DNA from: Pegoplata infirma
Taxonomy: Eukaryota; Arthropoda; Insecta; Diptera; Anthomyiidae
Reading direction: 5' to 3'
DNA: 64,000 nucleotides
Assembly: GCA_963921195.1 (NCBI GenBank)
Contig: OY992536.1
Location: 92,237,007-92,301,006 of the forward strand
Under the pieces are notes generated by a model. That model ran no database searches and was not told the DNA's origin. It saw only the letters and a list, made by a program, of their open reading frames with translations. The position numbers and the translations under genes are program-made. The first letter of the stretch is position 1, and every line of letters starts with the position of its first letter. This document shows positions 8,452-49,316 of this stretch, piece by piece.

Positions 8452-9809
8452 ATTGTGATACAATTTTCATAATCATAATATGACGCTCTTAAATGTGGTT
8501 GCCACAATCATATCTCTTCTCTCAGTGTTCAATTCGCGGAATTTCGTATAGTTAAAAGATTGAGGATCATCGCTATAAATTTGCAAAAATCCATTTTAAT
8601 ATAATTTTTTCTCGAAAACTTTATTTGCATTTTATGTCTTGACTAGAAGTTCATACTGCGAAAATAGCCGAAATTTTGGATCATGGCTAGAAAATTCCTA
8701 AAATAATTATTTTTATGATTTATGAAACTTTAAGTGCCATTTATTGCTTAAATAGTGTTTGCAACGAAACTTGTCACAGATTTACTTTAAAAAATACCAT
8801 CAATTTGCAGATGGTAGCCAAATCGATTCATTTTCATTCTAGAAGATTTTTTTGCTTTATTAAAAATATTATTATTCCTCCCATTTCTTTCCTCCTTAGT
8901 CCTAGGTATACTTCTCCATTAAAGCATATTTATGTAAACCTTCCTACATTGACACTTTTTCTTTTTTTATCAAAAAAAAAGCTATAAATGTGAATCTTCT
9001 AGGCTCGCAGTTTTGTCTATAACTAATTTTTATTGGGTGGTTGGTTGTCTAACCGAAAAATAATAATAAAAAATAGTATTTGCAACTAGTTGCATATTTG
9101 CACATGTTATTTATCACTTCACTTTAGTTCACGTGCGTGCTCGTAATTTGCAATCAATTTGGTAAAGTAATTGCCATAGATATACAACAGCCAAAGAAGA
9201 CTCTGCTCCTTTCAAGCCAAAGTGCCAAAAAAAAAAATAAGATACATGTGTTCAACTGAAGGTAGTCCAACAAGTCTGCATACGGGACACTTTAATAAAT
9301 TTTAAAATTAGAAGAATTTCTTTTTCATTTCTAATCAGATCTAAAACACGTAAAAGGGAAATTTATTTATATTAGATACAGCGTTGTTTTTTTTTTTTAA
9401 TCTTAAGAATTATTAATTTAAAAATATAACATACGAGTAAGTATTCCTGTTTGGCGGTATAATCAATCTTCAGTATGAATTATAAATAATATTTCATATC
9501 TTTTATGAATGAAACAAATCTTTACTAATCGCATTAGGACTAATGGCGACCATTGTATAATGTTTGATGATTGTTGGTAGAGATGATGATGGTGGTGGTG
9601 GTGTTGCAAATAATATTGATGGTGGTGGCATTGACCATCATTCTTATTATAACAATCTGTTCTTTATTTAAAATGTTGCATACTCTTGTATCTTGTATCT
9701 CGAGTGTCTCTTGCATCACTTGTCGGCCCTTTAAGTTAGTGTTTTCTTTAGCCACTTATGTTATTTAGATGGCGTTTGCTGATATGTCACTGATCCATCA
9801 CAAGATAAA
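8452..9809. other. AT-rich stretch without recognised genes; GGTGAT microsatellite
   Basis: No reading frame with protein-like composition is present. A GATGATGATGGTGGTGGTGG-type microsatellite lies at 9583-9635. The short open frames here simply read through simple sequence. I see no other element with clear ends. Confidence 0.5.
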
Positions 9810-10009
9810 NNNNNNNNNNNNNNNNNNNNNNNNNNNNNNNNNNNNNNNNNNNNNNNNNNNNNNNNNNNNNNNNNNNNNNNNNNNNNNNNNNNNNNNNNNN
9901 NNNNNNNNNNNNNNNNNNNNNNNNNNNNNNNNNNNNNNNNNNNNNNNNNNNNNNNNNNNNNNNNNNNNNNNNNNNNNNNNNNNNNNNNNNNNNNNNNNNN
10001 NNNNNNNNN
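9810..10009. other. Assembly gap (200 N)
   Basis: Exactly 200 N bases. The gap starts in unique-looking sequence and ends inside the first hammerhead of the ~492-bp array, so it probably hides further array units of unknown number. Confidence 0.95.
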
Positions 10010-10052
10010 GCTGAAGATTCCTTTAGTGGGGATGAAACTGATCAGTACAGAC
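10010..10052 (+). ncRNA. Hammerhead ribozyme, type I, copy 1 (5' strand of stem I cut by the gap)
   Basis: Core CTGAAGA (fits CUGANGA), a stem II hairpin, GAAA, the short stem III ACT-GATC-AGT, then A and CAGAC. The GTCT that would pair with AGAC lies in the N gap. Otherwise it is identical to the complete copies. Confidence 0.65.
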
Positions 10053-10496
10053 ATACTATGAGATAGTAACTTTTTAAAGCAATAAATTAAAAATACTCTA
10101 TTATGACAATATCATAAATAGAAATATTTTTGGGCCTCGAACTAGAATAAAACTCTAATCGAATATATATACATATATAAAGGCCGAATAAATACTTTTA
10201 TTTTTATGTACCTTTTGGTACTAAAATAAAAAAACAACATTTAACACAAAGTTTAGTACGACTTATCCTACCAACACTATTGTTTGGTTAGGCACTGTTG
10301 TTATTGTAAAATAACAGCAACACATATATTAATAGTTACCGACGGTGATTTAATATATACAATTTTGCTTTAAAAGAGTTATTTTTGTTGGAAAACAGAT
10401 TTCGGACCTTCATAATAGTACTTCCATATAACTTGGGAAATATATCAAATATTATGTCTGGTTTGATGTTTGATTGACCAACGATGATTCTCTAAA

Positions 10497-10543
10497 GTCT
10501 GCTGAAGATTCCTTTAGTGGGGATGAAACTGATCAGTACAGAC
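10497..10543 (+). ncRNA. Hammerhead ribozyme, type I, copy 2
   Basis: Parts in order: stem I 5' strand GUCUG (10497-10501); core CUGAAGA, matching CUGANGA (10502-10508); stem II UUCCU with GGGGA-side pairing and a UAGU loop (10509-10524); GAAA (10525-10528), whose last A starts stem III; stem III ACU/AGU closing GAUC; U16.1 then A17, with predicted cleavage between 10538 and 10539; stem I 3' strand CAGAC (10539-10543), a perfect 5-bp match. Beyond a 4/7-nt internal loop, UCUC and GAGA can extend stem I, as natural type I hammerheads do to contact loop II. Caveats: the first stem II pair would be U-U instead of the usual G-C, and stem III is short. Activity is predicted, not shown. Confidence 0.75.
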
Positions 10544-10990
10544 ATACTATGAGATAGTAACTTTTTTAAAGCAATAAATTAAAAATACTCTATTATGACA
10601 ATATCATAAATAGAAATATTTTTGGGCCTCGAACTAGAATAAAACTCTAATCGAATATATATACATATATAAAGCCGAATAAATACATTTTATTTTTATG
10701 TACCTTTTGGTACTAAAAATAAAAAAACAACATTTAACACAAAGTTTAGTACGACTTATCCTACCAACACTATTGTTTGGTTAGGCACTGTTGTTATTGT
10801 AAAATAACAGCAACACATATATTAATAGTTACCGACGGTGATTTAATATATACAATTTTTGCTTTAAAAGAGTTATTTTTGTTGGAAACAGATTTCGGAC
10901 CTTCATAATAGTACTTCCCATATAACTTGGGAAATATATCAAATATTATGTCTGGTTTGATGTTTGATTGACCAACGATGATTCTCTAAA

Positions 10991-11037
10991 GTCTGCTGAA
11001 GATTCCTTTAGTGGGGATGAAACTGATCAGTACAGAC
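10991..11037 (+). ncRNA. Hammerhead ribozyme, type I, copy 3
   Basis: Identical in core and stems to copy 2: GUCUG 10991-10995, CUGAAGA 10996-11002, stem III palindrome ACUGAUCAGU, cleavage predicted between 11032 and 11033, CAGAC 11033-11037. Cleavage at copies 2 and 3 would release a monomer of about 494 nt. Confidence 0.75.
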
Positions 11038-11227
11038 ATACTATGAGATAGTAACTTTTTTAAAGCAATAAATTAAAAATACTCTATTATGACAATATCA
11101 TAAATAGAAATATTTTTGGGCCTCGAACTAGAATAAAACTCTAATCGAATATATATACATATATAAAGCCGAATAAATACATTTTATTTTTATGTACCTT
11201 TTGGTACTAAAATAAAAAAACAACATT

Positions 11228-11660
11228 TTTCCAAAATGTTATTCCGCGAGAGGGTCCTAGACTTCAAATTTCAAGTTTCTGTGACCATTTGTTTAGAATA
11301 TAAAAAATGTACCAATTTGCCCTATTTTCCCCTTTTTCCCCCCTTGGAGGCGGAATTTTCCAAAAAAAATTTTCCGAAATTTTATTTCCGCGAGAGGATC
11401 CTAGAGTTCAAATTTGAAGTTTCTAGGACTATTAGTTCAAAAGATACAAAATCCCCAAAGGGCCCTATTTTCCCCCTTTTGCCCCCCTTAGAATCGGAAT
11501 TTCCAAAATCCCTTCTAGTGGGTGGTTTTGTAGGGAGCCGAACCTACATTCCAAATTTCAAGTCTCTAGCTTCAGCGGTTTGGGCTGGGCGTTGATTATT
11601 GCCAATCAGTCAGTCAGTCAGTCAGTCAGTCACCACACTCTTTTATATATATAGATTGAT
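11228..11660 (-). mobile_element. Helitron/Helentron-like fragment with (TCAG)n tract
   Basis: Read on the minus strand it starts TCAATCTATATATATAAAAG, then carries a (CTGA)n microsatellite (11607-11630). It then has two ~160-bp internal repeats (CCGCGAGAGG(G/A)TCCTAGA at about 11250 and 11388). A TATATATAAAA start followed by a short-period microsatellite is typical of insect non-autonomous Helentron-type repeats. The 3' end is not identified; it abuts the hammerhead array. A 119-codon open stretch here is Phe/Pro-rich repeat read-through, not a gene. Confidence 0.45.
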
Positions 11661-12664: not shown

Positions 12665-12928
12665 GAAAAATATACGATACTCTTGTGGAAATAGACGAAT
12701 TTTTGACTTTGTATTGAATATATTCAAAATACATACTCGAATTATAAATTGTTAAATCATATTCCATACATTTTGTTCCTTTTTCCAGCTTTTCTAAAAA
12801 TAAAATCGATAGATTTCAAGCTAAGACCTAAATCACATTTTTACCAGCTTTTGAAGGAAGAAAACCTCAAAATCTAGCTGGAAAATCTTAATATTTATAA
12901 ATTAATTAATTAATATTTAATTTTAAAC

Positions 12929-15249
12929 ATGGATCTATTGCCGTCAACATCACAAGCCGCACCAACATCAATAAGTACCGAAAGTAGTTTGAAACATATG
13001 CCTTCTCACGATGTTCCTGCTTTTGGTATGTCTTCTGATTTGACTGGTCTGAATCTGCCAACTAAACAGGATATTTTAAGATGCTATTTTTTCCTGGCCG
13101 AACGTGCTAAAATGCAAAGTAAAATGTTTTCATATAAAACATTTACTCCTCAAGTGACAGACAAATTGATTGGAATTTGGAGCAAACTAAATATTGAAAT
13201 TATATGCAAACGAAATATTGTTAGAAAATTGAATACCTTGCTTGACAAATACTACACTGAAGATAAATGCAAAGCAAAAGGCTCCAGTCTCACATCTTTC
13301 TTACGATCCATAAAAGAATTATTTTACATTGGGAAATGTAAATGTGACTTGAAAGCTGCTCTATGCTCATGTGGAATGATTACAGAAGTGTTGAAAGAGT
13401 TTATGATGGATCAACATAATGACAGAAGATCTACGATACCGGAATACCAGACAGAAATTGAAGAGCAAGCACCTACATCTACAATAATAGAAACAATTGA
13501 AGAGAGCCAGGGTCTAACATACGTGCCAGAAGAAGACCAGGAAAGTGATTATGAGCATAGTTCACATTTAGTAGAAGCACAAAATGCATCTCAAACGAAA
13601 CGAGGACCATATACACCCAGATACGATGCTTTCAAGTTTGCTATGATGTGTGACAGATTTGGTGTGTCAGATAGAATAGCATCAGCATTGGCAACATCTC
13701 TTATGGAAGACATTGGCGTCAAAGATGGTCATGGCAATCTTGTCATTATGGACAAGTCTAAAGTTCGTAGAGAAAAAGTTAAATGTAGACAAAAAGTGCT
13801 TCATAATCGGTATGATGCTTCCAATTTAATTGCATTTTCATTCGACGGCAGAAAAAATGATTCTTTAACGATGGAAAAAATCGATAACAAATTTCATCCA
13901 AGGATGGTGAAAGAACCTCACCTAGTTGTTTTAAAGGAACCACATTCCCAATTATTAGGCTACATAAAAGTAGAAAATGAAGATTCTGAACACAAAGTCA
14001 TCAAATTGAACGAATTTTTAATCAACAAAGCAATGTCTCTAGATTCTTTGATTGGCATATGCTGTGATGGTGAGCGAGCAAATACTGGCATAAGAAATGG
14101 AATTTTGCGACGATTCGAAATGCAGTTAAACAGACCACTGCATTGGTTTGTGTGCCTTCTACACTTTAACGAGCTTCCGTTACGGCATTTGTTTGACACT
14201 TTGGAGAAATCATCCACCACTGGACCACGAACGACAACCGGAACGTTGAGCAAACAAATAGAAACTTGTGATAATGTTCCGGTATGTAATTTTTTTAAAT
14301 TTGTATTACTATTTTGAATCGTATTTCTCAAGTAATGTGTTCGAATTTAAATGATAAAATTGTATTTAATTCATCTAATCTCTTCTATTTTTAGGGGGTG
14401 AACGATTTTGAGATTATCACTCTGGAAAATAAACCTGATTTAAGTGCTGTTGAATTAACTACCGACGCAATGTACTTATACAAAATGGCGCTTGCAATTT
14501 CTTCTGGTGAGGTTTTGGCGGATTTGGCCAACATTAAACCAGGGCCAAAAGCACATTCTCGTTGGCTCACCAAGGCCAGTAGATTATTACGGTTATATGT
14601 GACAACCAACAAGCCATCTACAAATTTAAAAATTCTGGCAAACTATATAATTAAAGTATATACGCCAATGTACTTCAATATTAAATATTACAACTCTGTC
14701 GTGCACGGTAGTGTATTATTTTATAAATTCATACGTTGGACTCAATATTTGGATTCGAATTTAAGCCAAATTGTAAATAATGTTGTTAAAGAAAACCCGT
14801 ATTATGCTCATTCAGAAAACATTTTATTGGCAATGTTGTTCGACGATGAAAAAAAAATACGCGACTTAGCTCTAAAAAAAATTTTACACTACCGTAACCA
14901 TGTGGAAGATCCGATGCTACTGAGAGTTTATAAAAAGCCTATCATAAACTTCAATTGCACAGATTTTACGAATATGATTGACATGAATGATAATTCAATC
15001 TTATTCGAACCACCATTCACTCGAAATATTCCTTATGAATATCTACAAAAATATTTAGAAGACATTGATCCACCGCTGCCTGATCCGAAAATTCCAGTAC
15101 ACATACAAGGAACGGAAAGACATGTTCAATTGCTGTCTAGTGTATCCAAAAGAGTTTTAGAACATAATCGAGAAGGAGTTATGGCGGTGACATTAGAAAG
15201 TCGTGAAAAATTCGCTAGACTTGACAGCAAGAAAGACTTTCAAAAATAA
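12929..15249 (+). CDS. hAT-like transposase, two exons, 735 aa
   Basis: Exon 1 is 12929-14281 and exon 2 is 14395-15249. The 113-bp intron (14282-14394) has GTATGT at its start and a TTTTTAG acceptor, phase 0. The start ATG has an AAAC upstream. Reading on past 14281 hits a stop at 14315, so splicing is needed. The likely role is cutting and joining its own ends. Visible motifs: a Cys cluster C137-x-C139 / C146-x-C148; an acidic Ser-rich linker (about 170-215); SFDG with D306 as candidate first catalytic Asp; CCDG with D380 as second; C409-x2-H412 in WFVCLLHFNELPL, comparable to the hAT CxxH motif; and SRW (506-508) comparable to the hAT TRW block. I could not fix the final Glu and no clear BED finger is seen. 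Similar proteins with a LLHxNELPLRHL signature occur in arthropod genomes (from memory). No stops or frameshifts interrupt it. Confidence 0.75.
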
Positions 15250-38696: not shown

Positions 38697-40834
38697 TAGA
38701 CTATTTTCCATAGAAAATTTTTTGTTATCGAAGTATTGATAACTATTAAATTTTCAATAGAAAACTTTCTGTTATCGATAACTATTTAATTTTCTTTAGG
38801 AAATTTTTCTGTTATCGATTAATAACTAGTCAATTTTTTCTTAAAAGCTTTCTGTTATCGATACATCGACAACTTTGAAAATATCCATAGAAAATTTTAT
38901 GTTATCGATAGATCGATAACTATAGTATTTTCTACAAAAATTTTCTGTTATCGATATATAGAATTTTCTATAGAAAATTTTCTGTTATAGATGTATTGAT
39001 AACTTTAAAACTTTCTTTAGAAAATTTTCTGTTATCGATAACTATTGAATTTTCTACAAAAACTTTCTGTTATCGATAACTATAAAATTTTCTAAAGAAA
39101 GTTTTCTTTTATCATTACATCGATAAATTAAGAATTTTCTATAGAAAACTTTCTGTTATCAATATATCCACAGCAATAAAATTTATTATAGGAAATTTTC
39201 TGTTATCGATATAACGATAACTAGACAATTTTCTATACACAATTTTCTGTTATCGATATATCTACCGATAGACAATTTTCTATATACAATTTTCTGTTAT
39301 CGGTATGTCTATAAATATAGAATTTTCAATAGAAAATTTTCTGTTATCGATATATCAATGACTATTGAATTTTCTACAAAAAAAATCTGTTATCGATAAC
39401 TAAAAAATTTTCTATAGAAAATTTTCTTTTATCATTACATCGATAAATTAATGATTTTTCTATAGAAATTTTCTATTATCAATATATCCATAACAATAAA
39501 ATTTATTATAGAAAATTTTCTGTTATCGATATAACGATAACTAGACAAATTTCTATATATAATTTTCTGTTATAGATAACTAGACAATTTTCTTAAGACA
39601 ATTTTCTATTATTGGTATATCAATAAATATAGAATTTTCTGTAGAAAATTTTCTGTTATCGATATATAAATGACTATTGAATTTTCTACAAAAAAAATTT
39701 GTTATTGATAACTATAAAATTTTCTATAGAAAATTTTCTTATATCATTACATCGATAAATTAAGATTTTTCTATAGAAATTTTCTATTATCAATATATCC
39801 ATAACAATAAAATTTATTATAGAAAATTTTCTGTTATCGATATTACGATAACTACATAGACAAATTTCTATATATAATTTTCTGTTATGGATAACTAGAC
39901 AATTTTCTTAAGACAATTTTCTATTACCGATATACCGATAAAAATATAAATTTCTATAGAAAATTTTGTAATCGATAACTAAACCAGAAAATGTTCTTTA
40001 GAAAATTTTCTAGTTATCGATAAAAAATTATATAGTTATCGATATATCGATAAAAGAAAATTTTCTGCAAAAAATTGTATATATATCGATATTTTGACAA
40101 CTACACCATTTTATGTATACATATTTTCTAAAATCGATATAGCGATAACTACACAATCTTCTACAGAAAACTTTCTAAGTATATCAATATACAGATAACT
40201 AAATCATTTTTTATACACACATTTTTTGCATATCATTTTCTACTAAATATACAATTTTCTATGGAAAACTTTCTGTATCGATATATCTATAACTATTGAA
40301 ATTTCTATAGAAAATTTTCTGTTATCGATAAATCGATAACTACACCAAAAGAATTTCCAGTATATTTATCAATATGTCGATGACAAAAAAATTCTCTAGA
40401 AAATTGTATAGTTATTGATTTATCAATAACAAAAAGTTGGCTGTAGAAAATTGTCTAGTTTTCTATTCATCGATTACAGAAAATTGTCTATATAAAATTG
40501 TCTAATTATCGATACATCGATTACAGAAAAATTTCTATAGAAAATTGACTAGTTACCAATGTACCGACACGCAGAAAATTGTTTGCTATCGATATATCGA
40601 TAAAAAAGTTTTATATTTATCGATAAATCCATAACAGAAAATTTCTTTAGAAATTGCCTAGCTTTTTATATATCGATGACAGAAAATTGTGTAGTTATCG
40701 ATACATTGATTACAGAAAATTTGCTATAGAAAATTGAGTAGTTATCTATGTAACGACAACACAAAATTTTCTATAGAAAATTGTTTAGTTATCAATATAT
40801 CGACAACATTATGTTTTCTATAGAAAATTCTTTA
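38697..40834. repeat. TATCGATA satellite, segment 2 (main array)
   Basis: Roughly 45 degenerate ~47-bp units of the form TTTTCTGTTATCGATATATC, GATAACTA and ATTTTCTATAGAAAA. The octamer TATCGATA and its half CGATA recur throughout. No coding. Confidence 0.75.
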
Positions 40835-42390
40835 CCCGAGTAAAAAAAATTATATGACACAATATATAATTTAATATGGGTTCGTGTCTATTTTGATATA
40901 ATCTTATACGAAAAATGGTTTCATAAGATTTCATCGAATATTATCTAATAATATCAGTTTATATAACTTTATATCGACTTTGATACGAGTTTTGGTCTAA
41001 TCCAATGATATAAAATTATATCCAATTATATTTAAATTTATACAATTTTATAAATCGGATGTTTTTTTTAGTTTTTACTTAAAAGCTGAAAAATTAAAAT
41101 AATAAAAATAAGTTGTTCTTGAAAAAAACTTGGAAAAATTTCAAAAAATGGAGTCATGTTAAATTTTATATAGAAGATTTAGAAAATATTTTCAAAAAAA
41201 TTTGTCCTTGGAAAAACTTAGAAAAATTTAAAAAAAATGGAGTCATATAAAATGTTATATAAAACAGAAAATATTTGCGATAAAAAAATGTTCCTTGAAA
41301 AAAACTTAGAAAAAATTTGAAAGATGGACTCATATAAAATTTTATATAAAACACTTAGAAAATATTCGTGATAAAAAAATTGTGCTTGGAAAAAACTTTA
41401 AAAAATAAAAAAATTATGGAGGCATATAAAATTTTATATTTTATATTTTAATTTTATATAAAAAACTTAAAATGATACATGGGAGCAGATGTTACAACAT
41501 ATAGTTATGTATGGCGATATCTTAAAAAAATCCCACATCAAAATTTATTATATAAATTTATCTTGCAAGACATAGTAGGGTTATATAATCGCAACAAAAA
41601 GTCGACTTTTCGACTTTTCGACTTTTTTCAAATTTTAAAAAGTCGACTTTTCGACCTTTCGACTTTTTAAAAAGTCGACTTTTTTCGACTTTTCGACTTT
41701 TTTCGACTTTTGACTTTTTTCGACTTTTCGACTTTTTGCGACTTTCTTCGACTTTTTAACTTTTTCGACCTTTTCCAACTTTAAAAAGTCGATTTGTTTG
41801 TAAATAAAAGTTTAGTTTTGACTTGTTGTACTTAAGCATTTGGGTGCTATTTTTTTTGGTTGTATTTTATTTATCAAAAAAAGTCAAAGAAATCGAAAAT
41901 GTGGAAAAGGTTGAAAAAATCGAAAGCAAAAGAGTCGACTTTCGATTTATAGAACCCTATCACTGAGGTGTTTACAATAATCAAAAATATTGGTAAATAT
42001 TGCAGTTAACACTTTCTATTTTCAACTCATGAATTTGGCATTGACATTTTTGCTTCACATACAAAATACATGGAAACACCAATAGCTTCAGTTGTTATTA
42101 AACTCGGCTCTCATTTGAAATTTTTTTCAGAAGAAAGAAATTATTTTCGTTTCGCAAAAGTAAAAAAAATCAAAAAAAAAATCGGAAAAAGTCGAAAAAA
42201 GTCGAAATCAAAAGTCGACTTTTCGACTTTTTAAGAACAAAAAAGTCGATTTCGACTTTTCAACTTTTTCATACAAAAAGTCGATTAATCGACTTTTCGA
42301 CTATAAGACATAGTGTCACACATGATCATATATGAAATAATATGACTATATAAAAGTATATAAGATCATACTAAATTATTTTTACTCGGG
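40835..42390. mobile_element. CCCGAGTAAAA-ended TIR element inserted in the TATCGATA array
   Basis: CCCGAGTAAAAAAAATTATA at the left and AATTATTTTTACTCGGG at the right are inverted, with TA at 40833-40834 and 42391-42392. The array reads through when the element is removed (GAAAATTCTTTAGTTATTGA, as in the intact unit at 42675). A matching right end lies at 63415-63557. It carries the insertion at 41576-42305. Confidence 0.65.
41576..42305. mobile_element. GTCGACTTTT-rich insertion with 8-bp duplication AGACATAG
   Basis: AGACATAG lies on both sides (41568-41575, 42306-42313). The left end TAGGGTTATATAATCG is hAT-like, and an inverted partner CGATTTATAGAACCCTA sits inside at 41943-41959, so two related elements may be fused. 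The body consists of AAAAGTCGAC/GTCGACTTTT words. Confidence 0.5.
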
Positions 42391-42392
42391 TA

Positions 42393-43488
42393 GTTATTGA
42401 TATATTGATAACAGAACATTTTTATAGTTATCGGTATATTTGTAACAGAAAACTTTATAAAGAAAATTCTATATTTATCGATACATCGAAAATTTTCTAT
42501 AGAAAATTCTATAATTATCGACATATCGATAACAGAAAGTTTTTTATAGAAAATTCTACGGTTATCAATATATCGATAAACATAAAATTTTCTATAGAAA
42601 TTTCGTTGGTTATCGATAACAGAAAATGTTCTATGGAAAATTCTATAGTTATCGATAACAGACATTTTTCTGTAGAAAATTCTTTAGTTATTAATATATC
42701 GATAACAGAAAATTTTCTATAGAAAATTCTATAGTTATCAATATTTCGATAATAGAAAATTTTCTAAAGAAAACTCTATATTTATCGATATAGCGATAAT
42801 AGAAAATTTTTTACCGAAAATTCTATAGTTATCGGTATATTAAAAACAGAACATTTTTTTATAGAAAATTTTATAGTTATCGAAAATAGAAAATTTTATA
42901 GTTATCGAAAATAGAAAATTTTCTATAGAAAATTTTATGCAGAAACTTTGCATATAGGAAATTATCTAGTTATAGGTAATTCGGCGAAAGAATCTTTTCT
43001 GTAAAAAATTCTATTGTTATCGATACGGAAAAATTGTATTGTTATCGATATGGATCGATGCCATTTCTTGATTCGGAAAGATAATCGGTCGATATCGGTT
43101 TTACACTATCGACAAAAAACATGCATTTGAATGGAAATCACATCCCTATTGATAGCTATATAATTTTTTCGAAAGAGAATTTTCTGCAATTTTTTTTATA
43201 AAAAATGTTCTTTTATCTACATATCGATAACTTAAGAATATTCTTTAAAAAAATTTCTGTTATCGATGTGTGGAAAACTAAAAAATTTTCTTTGGAAAAT
43301 GGTCTGTTAAAATTTATCGATAATTATAGATGAATAAAAAAAAATTTTTCAATAGAAATTTTTTTGTGATAGATAATATAAAACAGTACCATTTTTACAG
43401 AAAATTTTCTGTTATCGATAATTTCCTTTAAAAAATTTTCCGTTATCAATAGAAAATTTTCTGTCATCGGTATATCGATAACTAGACA
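42393..43488. repeat. TATCGATA satellite, segment 3
   Basis: Continuation of the main array, about 22 units, with GATAACAGAAAATTTTCTAT and ATTCTATAGTTATCGATATA words. Segments 2 and 3 were one array before the insertion at 40835-42390. Confidence 0.7.
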
Positions 43489-43499
43489 ATATTTCAGTC

Positions 43500-44875
43500 G
43501 GCGACACGAAATAACTCCCACATGAAATAACTCCCACCTAAAAAATGAAAAAAGTCCCAAAAAAAACTCCATACAAAGTTGGGAGTTATTTCATTTGAAG
43601 TAACTCCCAATTTAGTGGGACTTTTATCATTTTTGTTGGGAGTTATTTCATAATTTTCGTTGGGAGTTCTTTCATATGAAAGAACTCCCACTACAATAGC
43701 AATGAAATAACTCCCACTTTTATTCCATTGTTGGTGGATGTATCTGGAACATTTTGACTTATACAATATTATTATTAATAAAATAAATTTTTTTATGATA
43801 TTGGTACCAAATTTTTGGACGAAGTGCTTTCTAACAAATTTGTATATTTCAGAAATTTTTGTACCAAAACTGGCAAGAATTTTTGAGTTAAGAGCGCACT
43901 GCAGCCGAAAATATTTTCGTTTGAATAGAAAATTGTTAAAAAAAAACGGCTCACGTGAAAATATCCAACGCGTTGTGTTTCTCGATAACATAGAAAGTTT
44001 TTCGATAACATACAAGATTGTTGGAAAAAGCACCACAGGTGAAAATTTAAAAGATTTCATTAGCACTTGTAAAAAGCGCCGCAGGCGAAAATTTGGTACC
44101 AAAAATCGCCGCGATTTTTGGTACCAAATTTTCGCTTGTGGCGCTTTTTACAACAAGTGCTAATTAAATCTTTTAAATTTTCGGTAACAAACAAATTTGT
44201 CGCAAAAAGCTCCGCAGGCGAAAATTTGGTACCAAAAATCGCCGCAATTTTTGGTACCAAATTTTCGCCTGCGGCGCTTTTTACAACAAGTGCTAATTAA
44301 ATCTTTTAAATTTTCGGCAACAAATAAATTTTAATTACAACAGGTTGTAATTAAATCTTTTAAATTTTCGGTAACATACAAATTTGTCGCAAAAAGCACC
44401 GCAGGCGAAAAATTGGTACTAAAGGTCGCCTCAAACCGCACATCCAGCGATGTTTGTAGGTAACCGAATCAAGTCAAACAGAACACTCACAATCCGTGTA
44501 TTTTTGCATGTTATCGAAACACTCTTAAAAAAATCAGCCGTCAACTTTCGCATCGGCAGTTATAACATGTTTGTATTGTACCGAAAGTAAGATCAGGATC
44601 TTCATGCTCGATTTATCTGATATATGTACATATTTTCCCTTATTGTTTGTGGAATTTTTGTTGAGACTTTTAAATTTTTTTATTGGGACTTCTTTCGTTA
44701 TTAATGGGAGTTATTTCATTGGCACTTATTTCATTTTGTAGGTGGAAGTTATTTCATTGCAGTTGGGACTTTTTTCATTTATTTCTTTATTGGGACATAT
44801 TACATTTTTGGTGGGATTTATTTCATTGGGAGTTATTTCGTGGGAGTTATTTCATGTGGGAGTTATTTCATGTCG
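43500..44875. mobile_element. Foldback element with tandemly repeated ends, FB/Mutator-like
   Basis: Both ends are arrays of ATGAAATAACTCCCA in inverted orientation (43508-43720; inverse 44690-44875). ATATTTCAGTC, 11 bp, flanks both sides (43489-43499, 44876-44886). The core holds inverted and direct copies of AAATTTGGTACCAAAAATCG and GGCGCTTTTTACAACAAGTG. Long inverted ends built of short tandem repeats are the signature of Drosophila FB elements, which belong with Mutator-like elements that duplicate 8-11 bp. The 202- and 141-codon open stretches run through the repeats on opposite strands and are not called as genes. Confidence 0.65.
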
Positions 44876-48618: not shown

Positions 48619-48929
48619 ATTGTATTTCAGAATTTATCGATTGTATATCAGAAGTCATAAGTTGTTTTTCAGAAGTTATCAATTTTTTTTAGAAATTATC
48701 AAATGTATTTCAGAAATTATTAACAGTTTTTCAGAAACTATCATTATCGCATTTTTCTTCTAAATGACTGTATAAATACCTAATTTTAATCTTACACACC
48801 TACAGTGACAATCGAAGAGTGCTGACGAAGGGTGGCTTCTTCCAAAATCTGTCGACATCTCCAATTAGCCTGACAAACACAGATTTTTTTTCAGATTTTC
48901 TCATAGTACAACAAAAATTATTATTTCTT

Positions 48930-49316
48930 AATATATACAATTTTTGCTTTAAAAGAGTTATTTTTGTTGGAAAACAGATTTCGGACCTTCATAATAGTAC
49001 TTCTCATATAACTTGGGAAATATATCAAATATTATGTCTGGTTTGATGTTTGATTGACCAACGATGATTCTCTAAAGTCTGCTGAAGATTCCTTTAGTGG
49101 GGATGAAACTGATCAGTACAGACATACTATGAGATAGTAACTTTTTTAAAGCAATAAATTAAAAATACTCTATTATGACAATATCATAAATAGAAATATT
49201 TTTGGGCCTCGAACTAGAATAAAACTCTAATCGAATATATATACATATATAAAGGCCGAATAAATACATTTTATTTTTATGTACCTTTTGGTACTAAAAA
49301 TAAAAAAACGACATTT
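48930..49316 (+). mobile_element. Isolated 5'-truncated copy of the ~492-bp hammerhead unit
   Basis: Starts TTAATATATACAATTTTTGC and runs to AAAAAAACGACATTT, nearly identical to 10354-10733 of the array (allowing for small indels), then stops where the array itself stops. A fixed 3' end with a variable 5' start is what target-primed reverse transcription leaves. It sits 38 kb from the array, inside the 21-bp satellite. Confidence 0.75.
49077..49123 (+). ncRNA. Hammerhead ribozyme, type I, copy 4
   Basis: Same sequence as copies 2 and 3: GUCUG 49077-49081, CUGAAGA, stem II, GAAA, ACUGAUCAGU, A17 at 49118, CAGAC 49119-49123. The core is unchanged in the dispersed copy. Confidence 0.75.

Follow-up and report, generated by a model that had tools for sequence, protein, structure and literature searches.

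A dispersed non-coding repeat of Pegoplata infirma with a predicted type I hammerhead fold and insertion scars resembling those of Penelope-like elements

Metazoan non-LTR retrozymes are described as dispersed, non-coding, low-GC tandem repeats of 150-450 bp that lack an LTR, carry a type I hammerhead and are flanked by duplications longer than 4 bp; their RNA is expressed in linear and circular form, some have a weak stem III, and dimeric hammerhead action has been described for those of amphibians (PMC7229834). Penelope-like elements (PLEs) have been named as strong candidates for moving animal retrozymes on the grounds that the two share hammerheads and tandem copies and co-exist (PMC7229834, PMC7761336). 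In the open-access PMC literature, where PLEs are stated as candidates, no description of PLE insertion scars on retrozymes was found. PLEs encode a reverse transcriptase and an endonuclease, occur as head-to-head and tandem copies in AT-rich targets with duplications of approximately 8-15 bp, carry a type I hammerhead, and have a 3' tail of 30-40 bp on one inverted end (PMC3846280, PMC11167929). In Adineta PLEs a 31-bp tail is optional at one inverted terminal repeat and duplications measure 8-10 bp (PMC3846280), and in an anole PLE two reverse-transcription starts delimit the tail (PMC11167929). The anole enzyme acts at AT-rich sites, where it cuts as well as extends both strands, and initiates within an AC-rich stem-loop; the ribozyme of this PLE requires protein, and ribozyme mutants still insert (PMC11167929). 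Minimal PLE hammerheads, for which dimeric action has been suggested, are reported with a palindromic and nearly absent stem III (PMC7761336). The pDo500 satellite of Dolichopoda cave crickets is a hammerhead-bearing tandem repeat of about 500 bp, for which compensatory changes in stems I and II, a variable core position N7 and a double-hammerhead proposal are given (PMC2837043).

The repeat described here was found in a window of 64,000 bp (C1:92237007-92301006) of the P. infirma genome (1.38 Gb, 813 contigs). It is probably a non-coding retroelement of approximately 494 nt (family A), of the metazoan retrozyme kind and mobilised in trans by a PLE. The proposed hammerhead fold and the insertion signature are supported by the evidence below; cleavage, circular RNA and a helper PLE we infer. 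Judged from its sequence, the unit fits the retrozyme description in every testable feature except length: it is a short, low-GC (27.9%), tandem and dispersed repeat with no long frame and no LTR, carries a type I hammerhead with a weak stem III and a predicted dimeric action, and shows duplications longer than 4 bp (at least 9 bp at 10 of 31 insertions). It departs from the account in PMC7229834 in its 494-bp length, in its mismatched 10.1-11.1 pair and A17, and in bearing PLE-type scars, PLEs being only proposed there. With PLEs it shares the head-to-head and tandem copies, the 3' tail on one inverted end, the duplications, the AT-rich targets and the type I hammerhead, but it has no frame for reverse transcriptase and GIY-YIG endonuclease, the coding feature of PLEs, and its tail is about 75 bp long. 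Stem III is short and palindromic as in minimal PLE hammerheads; unlike in those, it would reach 8-10 bp in the predicted dimer, and stem I has an outer extension. Furthermore, the unit is likened by description to pDo500 in repeat length, compensatory changes, variable N7 and double-hammerhead proposal, whereas in pDo500 the hammerhead exceeds the remainder of the repeat in conservation (here the two are equal) and the description in PMC2837043, as drawn on here, names no retro-insertion features. The unit is a dispersed short retroelement, not a plain satellite and not itself a PLE. The kin named in the preliminary description of this DNA (PLEs, retrozymes and animal satellites) were right in kind.

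Tandem repeat analysis (TRF) of the window yielded one array (period 494, 2.5 copies, 98% matches), in agreement with the tandem organization first proposed; the unit length had been put at about 492 bp. The motif reads GTCTG-CTGAAGA-stem II-GAAA-CTGATCAGT-A-CAGAC in the three complete copies (Table 1), with letters, positions and predicted cuts as previously given. The array ends at the long 3' end place of its next unit. An assembly gap, a run of 200 N at 9810-10009, adjoins the array start and leaves a single base of the first motif's 5' stem I strand; copies may be missing there. The claimed invariant core letters (CUGANGA, GAAA and UH) are present in the window copies, and the proposed UCUC/GAGA extension of stem I beyond an internal loop is likewise borne out, with 95.3% of outer-helix cells paired across the aligned family A rows. 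Two weak points raised at the outset, U-U at 10.1-11.1 and A17 (in what we take to be the hammerhead position numbering), both stand.

Table 1. Features of family A in the window. Unit positions (q) refer to the complete unit 2.
Feature	Position	Strand	Remarks
Family A unit array	10010-11228	+	2.5 units; sequence reading, TRF, mapping
Family A unit 1	10010-10479	+	5' part lost to assembly gap
Family A unit 2, complete	10480-10973	+	reference for unit positions q1-q494
Family A unit 3	10974-11228	+	stops at long 3' end, ...AAAAAAACAACATTT
Hammerhead motif copy 1	10010-10052	+	5' stem I strand cut by gap; predicted cut after 10047
Type I hammerhead motif copy 2	10497-10543	+	predicted cut after A10538 (q59)
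Type I hammerhead motif copy 3	10991-11037	+	predicted cut after A11032
Hammerhead with outer stem I extension	10490-10555	+	TCTC (10490-10493) pairs with GAGA (10551-10554) across internal loop
Short 3' end place	10656-10673 (about q177-q194)	+	one outer end of head-to-head insertions elsewhere stops here
Long 3' end place	10722-10739 (about q243-q260)	+	AC-rich; other outer end stops here
Dispersed copy, 5'-truncated	48928-49316	+	from q364 through next unit to long 3' end; BLAST reaches 49324
Type I hammerhead motif, dispersed copy	49077-49123	+	predicted cut after A49118

The window motif taken alone would be no more than suggestive. The bare core pattern, CTGANGA followed by GAAA, is uninformative, since its count is at chance level: seven matches in the window, four of them copies of the motif, compared to 4.06 (sd 2.26) in shuffles. 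A fuller motif, with thresholds picked after the motif had been seen (stem I of at least 5 bp, stem II of at least 3 beyond an optional mismatched first pair, stem III of at least 3), turned up at a rate of 0.013 per window (25 in 1,865 simulated 64-kb windows from a first-order Markov model), and the real window holds one independent sequence of this kind in three complete copies. The covariance search with hammerhead models that the preliminary description had proposed gave no Rfam match to the unit motif, neither at gathering scores in the window nor up to E = 10 on 9800-11400. A second family described below (family B) was likewise without an Rfam match. A search of the P. infirma genome with RF00163 gave no match among the 73 of 166,337 candidates scored, a search in which controls also went undetected. 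A hammerhead lineage with a mismatched 10.1-11.1 pair escapes standard covariance models.

Relatives of the unit are abundant in the genome. A search with the unit as query returned at least 92 matches (40 of 59 candidates scored), and a genome-wide pattern of the hammerhead core plus the loop II letters AGTGG (CTGANGAN{4,7}AGTGGN{3,7}GAAA) matched 5,169 times (2,566 + 2,603), compared to nine (7 + 2) for the reversed pattern. Among 100 matches listed, a hand count assigned 72 to family A, the family of the window, 27 to family B and one to neither. Family B has a 560-bp unit, also in tandem and head-to-head arrangement, with the hammerhead CCTA-CTGATGA-C.GTAG-AAGTGG-CTAC.A-GAAA-CCATGGT-C-TAGG; it carries less weight as evidence for the fold because the scan by which it was first detected required pairing. 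Rows repeating the window or L009, L011, L012 and L020 (L001-L008), a duplicate locus (L034, identical to L033) and rows at their neighbours' places (L074, L075, L077, L078, L081, L082, L087 and L091) were dropped. In one family B locus (L098; C1, about 10.92 Mb), unit positions 472 and 527 bear words resembling pol III boxes beside the hammerhead, TAGCCTAGTGGTTATGG and GGTTCGAAGC, which we take to be A box-like and B box-like, respectively, as in tRNA-derived SINEs; ARAGORN found no tRNA gene in this locus or in the window.

Comparison of these copies argues for the fold. Within family A, 22 aligned rows (16 distinct) pair in 96.2% of 236 cells, and two pairs change on both sides, compared to none in six slid control structures; G-C, G-U and A-U all occur as the outer stem I pair, and U-A and C-G as the second pair of stem II. 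In a fixed 46-base background across the genome, the outer stem I pair was G-C in 468 copies, G-U in 64, A-U in 31 and A-C in one, where arithmetic gives an expectation of about 27 A-C if the sides were independent; since the copies are related, these counts represent a path through A-U, G-U and G-C, not hundreds of events. Several subfamilies and the two families preserve stems I, II and III through compensatory changes. The preliminary description had held that a lack of such changes among diverged copies would speak against the ribozyme; across 20 rows of families A and B, aligned by hand (MAFFT had put the family B rows off by one), change on both sides was found in 7 of 12 pairs, spread over all three stems. 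Stem III varies among these rows as ACUGAUCAGU, ACAGAUCUGU and ACCAUGGU, and the L088 copy with ACAGAUCUGU was found by a pattern making no demand on stems I and III. A type I hammerhead fold in the unit is therefore well supported by the compensatory changes in three stems. The core is intact by eye in 17 of the 20 rows; L025 and L026 have changes in core letters or around A15.1/U16.1-N17, and L090m keeps the core with a stem I mismatch. In 34 diverged segments, the ribozyme region showed no extra conservation, with 74 of 1,010 positions mismatched (7.3%) compared to 493 of 6,726 (7.3%) in the rest; 28 of the 74 changes fall on four covarying positions.

Measured against the usual type I consensus, the core CUGANGA and GAAA, A15.1-U16.1, a UH before the predicted cut and an open stem I are all present, and the Watson-Crick pair at 10.1-11.1 is absent, being mismatched in all 20 rows (uu 15, ca 4, cu 1). 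This does not exclude a hammerhead, since natural hammerheads with U10.1-U11.1 exist and U-U supports the most cleavage of all mispairs (PMC3088659).

The copies also carry a characteristic insertion signature. Their 3' ends fall at either of two fixed places (about q180 or q257) and their 5' ends vary, and insertions often have target-site duplications and head-to-head halves. Copies that seemed to end at unit position 47 were an artefact of the query cut point, dismissed by mapping with a tripled unit. Flanking matches of 9 bp or longer occur at 10 of 31 insertions, compared to 1.8% of 930 mispaired controls; duplication lengths vary among insertions, and exact lengths are uncertain because of AT-rich flanks and microhomology. 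The dispersed window copy entered this test with its end at 49311, the recognisable end being 49316. Head-to-head insertions with both ends classifiable had one short and one long outer end in 18 of 18 cases (all 12 of an initial set and all 6 among loci retrieved afterwards); the ends come from a hand-typed table whose end windows were fixed once the initial set had been seen. The 18 exclude insertions with one end at neither site (L011, L014, L015, L019, L039, L042, L076 and L083), those too complex to classify (L017, L040 and L044), and L090. The last (C1:8576049-8576125) is an old family A copy with two short outer ends, mid-palindrome and inside a larger inverted duplication in which the flanks are inverted too. 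A short end combined with a long one is also seen in two family B insertions (L098, L099), whose duplications measure about 9 bp by eye. The family A long end is AAAAAAACAACATTT and the family B short end AAACACAAACA. Among the pattern matches listed, opposite-strand neighbours within 3 kb were head-to-head in 18 of 18 cases (hand count); single-orientation copies also occur (L086, L089). The combination of one short and one long outer end corresponds to the published PLE tail signature. Since an in vitro PLE study saw the start site alike between strands (PMC11167929), the rule of one short and one long end constrains PLE integration. As separate observations, unrelated DNA interrupts copies within two bases of the predicted cut (q60-q61) in L033 and L040. 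In addition, a family A copy in L013 (1063-4128) contains an insert of about 3 kb, with short inverted ends and an 8-bp direct repeat (TCCTACCA), which is presumably hAT-like.

The preliminary description had inferred that array transcripts would self-cleave into monomers of about 492 nt. In its simple form, with cleaved linear monomers as the main insertion template, this is not supported: 5' starts show no excess at the predicted cut (1 of 59 compared to 0.96 expected, in a hand list covering a subset of copies), and one run of 1,606 bp, more than three units (L009), repeatedly spans the cut site. This leaves circles or uncut multimers as candidate templates. The mean difference between units is 1.2% within an insertion (median 0) and 4.9% between insertions, a weak comparison because most recent loci have an equally close copy elsewhere.

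In the proposed mechanism, tandem copies would be transcribed as multimers, neighbouring hammerheads would pair via stem III and then cut, and the monomers would be closed into circles. A PLE protein dimer would nick both strands of an AT-rich target, and cDNA synthesis would begin on a circular or multimeric RNA, with one target strand using the short site and the opposite strand the long site; the two cDNAs would then be joined into head-to-head, tandem insertions. Cleavage would thus yield unit-length circles, and the insertion step itself would not require it. It is conceivable, as a tentative extension, that each head-to-head insertion uses both reverse-transcription starts once, with a PLE dimer on one RNA (a circle or double-hammerhead dimer) placing its two active sites at the two starts and copying onto both nicked strands. 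If the proposal is true, ribozyme-made RNA circles and PLEs form one transposition system, and that system is served by a hammerhead lineage without the usual first stem II pair. The insertion scars of the unit themselves bear the PLE signature, which is relevant to how ribozyme elements spread in animals; because they sit on a non-coding element with thousands of copies, retrozyme mobilisation by PLEs becomes directly testable.

Candidate helpers are encoded in the genome. A GIY-YIG search (E up to 1, 88 of 88 candidates scored) gave 64 matches, of which 33 lie in open frames of 400 aa or more and some in tandem or inverted sets; RVT_1 and GIY-YIG occurred in the same frame in 5 of 5 frames tested, with some scores just under curated cut-offs. 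One tandem set has 859-aa frames with a period of 2,899 bp, RVT_1 at residues 384-581 and a weaker GIY-YIG match (20.6 bits). After the frame, the PLE loci L053, L055, L056, L058 and L063 contain TTGAAAAAGTAACC-AAAAAA-GTTACGAAACGTCGGG or similar, possibly a degenerate hammerhead with U3-A8 replacing C3-G8.

One alternative is that the unit is a terminal repeat (pLTR) of an autonomous PLE and that the arrays are its solo or tandem pLTRs rather than an independent retrozyme family. Published pLTRs are tandem and inverted and bear minimal hammerheads (PMC7761336), and the 322-nt spacer of the 859-aa set holds a minimal hammerhead-like motif, CTGAAGATGCAATTC-AAA-GAATTGCGAAATATCGG. The stretch after this motif shares short collinear words with the unit, including under strict scoring a 27-base AT-rich match that 4 of 1,000 shuffles also attained, but lenient scoring against the PLE start region did no better than shuffles (372 and 516 of 1,000). 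The family B unit compared with the same region was matched by 385, 995 and 945 of 1,000 shuffles, and homology to the PLE start region was established for neither unit. An AT-rich match in L051 (3171-3236; 72 columns, 73.6%, E 1e-5) to q208-q278, about 1.4 kb after a GIY-YIG match, also favours the pLTR reading and could represent a unit-related PLE start region. Against it, no PLE with the unit as terminal repeat was found among the copies and PLE loci examined, none of the copies read joins the unit to a PLE frame, and the unit hammerhead differs from the very small PLE motif in its extended stem I and in a stem II of ordinary size. We consider this reading unlikely.

Similarly improbable is a PLE-mobilised repeat whose conserved structure is a non-cleaving bulged hairpin serving protein binding or reverse transcription. 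Such a hairpin, using core letters, has a lower predicted monomer energy than the hammerhead (-9.8 compared to -6.9 kcal/mol; minimum -13.9) and shares the covarying pairs of family A; furthermore, insertion 5' ends ignore the predicted cut, and the insertion of anole ribozyme mutants and the protein requirement of that ribozyme (PMC11167929) would suit it. Single-strand folding was no better than shuffles (z -0.5 to 0.6). However, CTGANGA, GAAA and the U-H rule are preserved between families with different stems, the family B stem III CCATGG is not complementary to the core CTGA, and a double substitution in L088 retains the stem III pair and disrupts hairpin pairing with the core.

The short palindromic stem III favours, in the folding models, a double (dimeric) hammerhead. 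Two window ribozymes co-fold at -38.4 kcal/mol in double-hammerhead topology, with a 10-bp stem III and stems I and II partly shifted, and the exact double hammerhead is predicted at -30.4 compared to -27.8 kcal/mol for two separate minima. In an older composite, the exact form (-28.4) falls short of two minima (-31.2), the joint minimum (-39.6 kcal/mol) again having double-hammerhead topology.

It is very improbable that the motif is a chance hammerhead-like word in an ordinary satellite or DNA transposon, such as a foldback element with inverted repeats. The tandem and inverted copies, the blank Rfam result and the frequency of the full motif (about one per 75 windows, or some hundreds in 1.38 Gb) fit that account; the fixed 3' and variable 5' ends, the varying duplication lengths, the single-orientation copies and the compensatory changes in three stems speak against it.

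Other repeats and frames occur in the window. A 144-bp tandem repeat (11227-11508; two copies, 81%) abuts the array end and is followed by a TCAG run (11606-11632). Consecutive frames of 467 and 284 aa at 12914-15249, with no Pfam match, possibly encode a transposase. From 38703 to 43293 lie long, AT-rich minisatellite arrays whose periods are about 47, 94 and 312 bp, and at 44071-44331 two 133-bp copies hold a GC-rich inverted repeat (AAAAAGCGCCGCAGGCG) in AT-rich surroundings.
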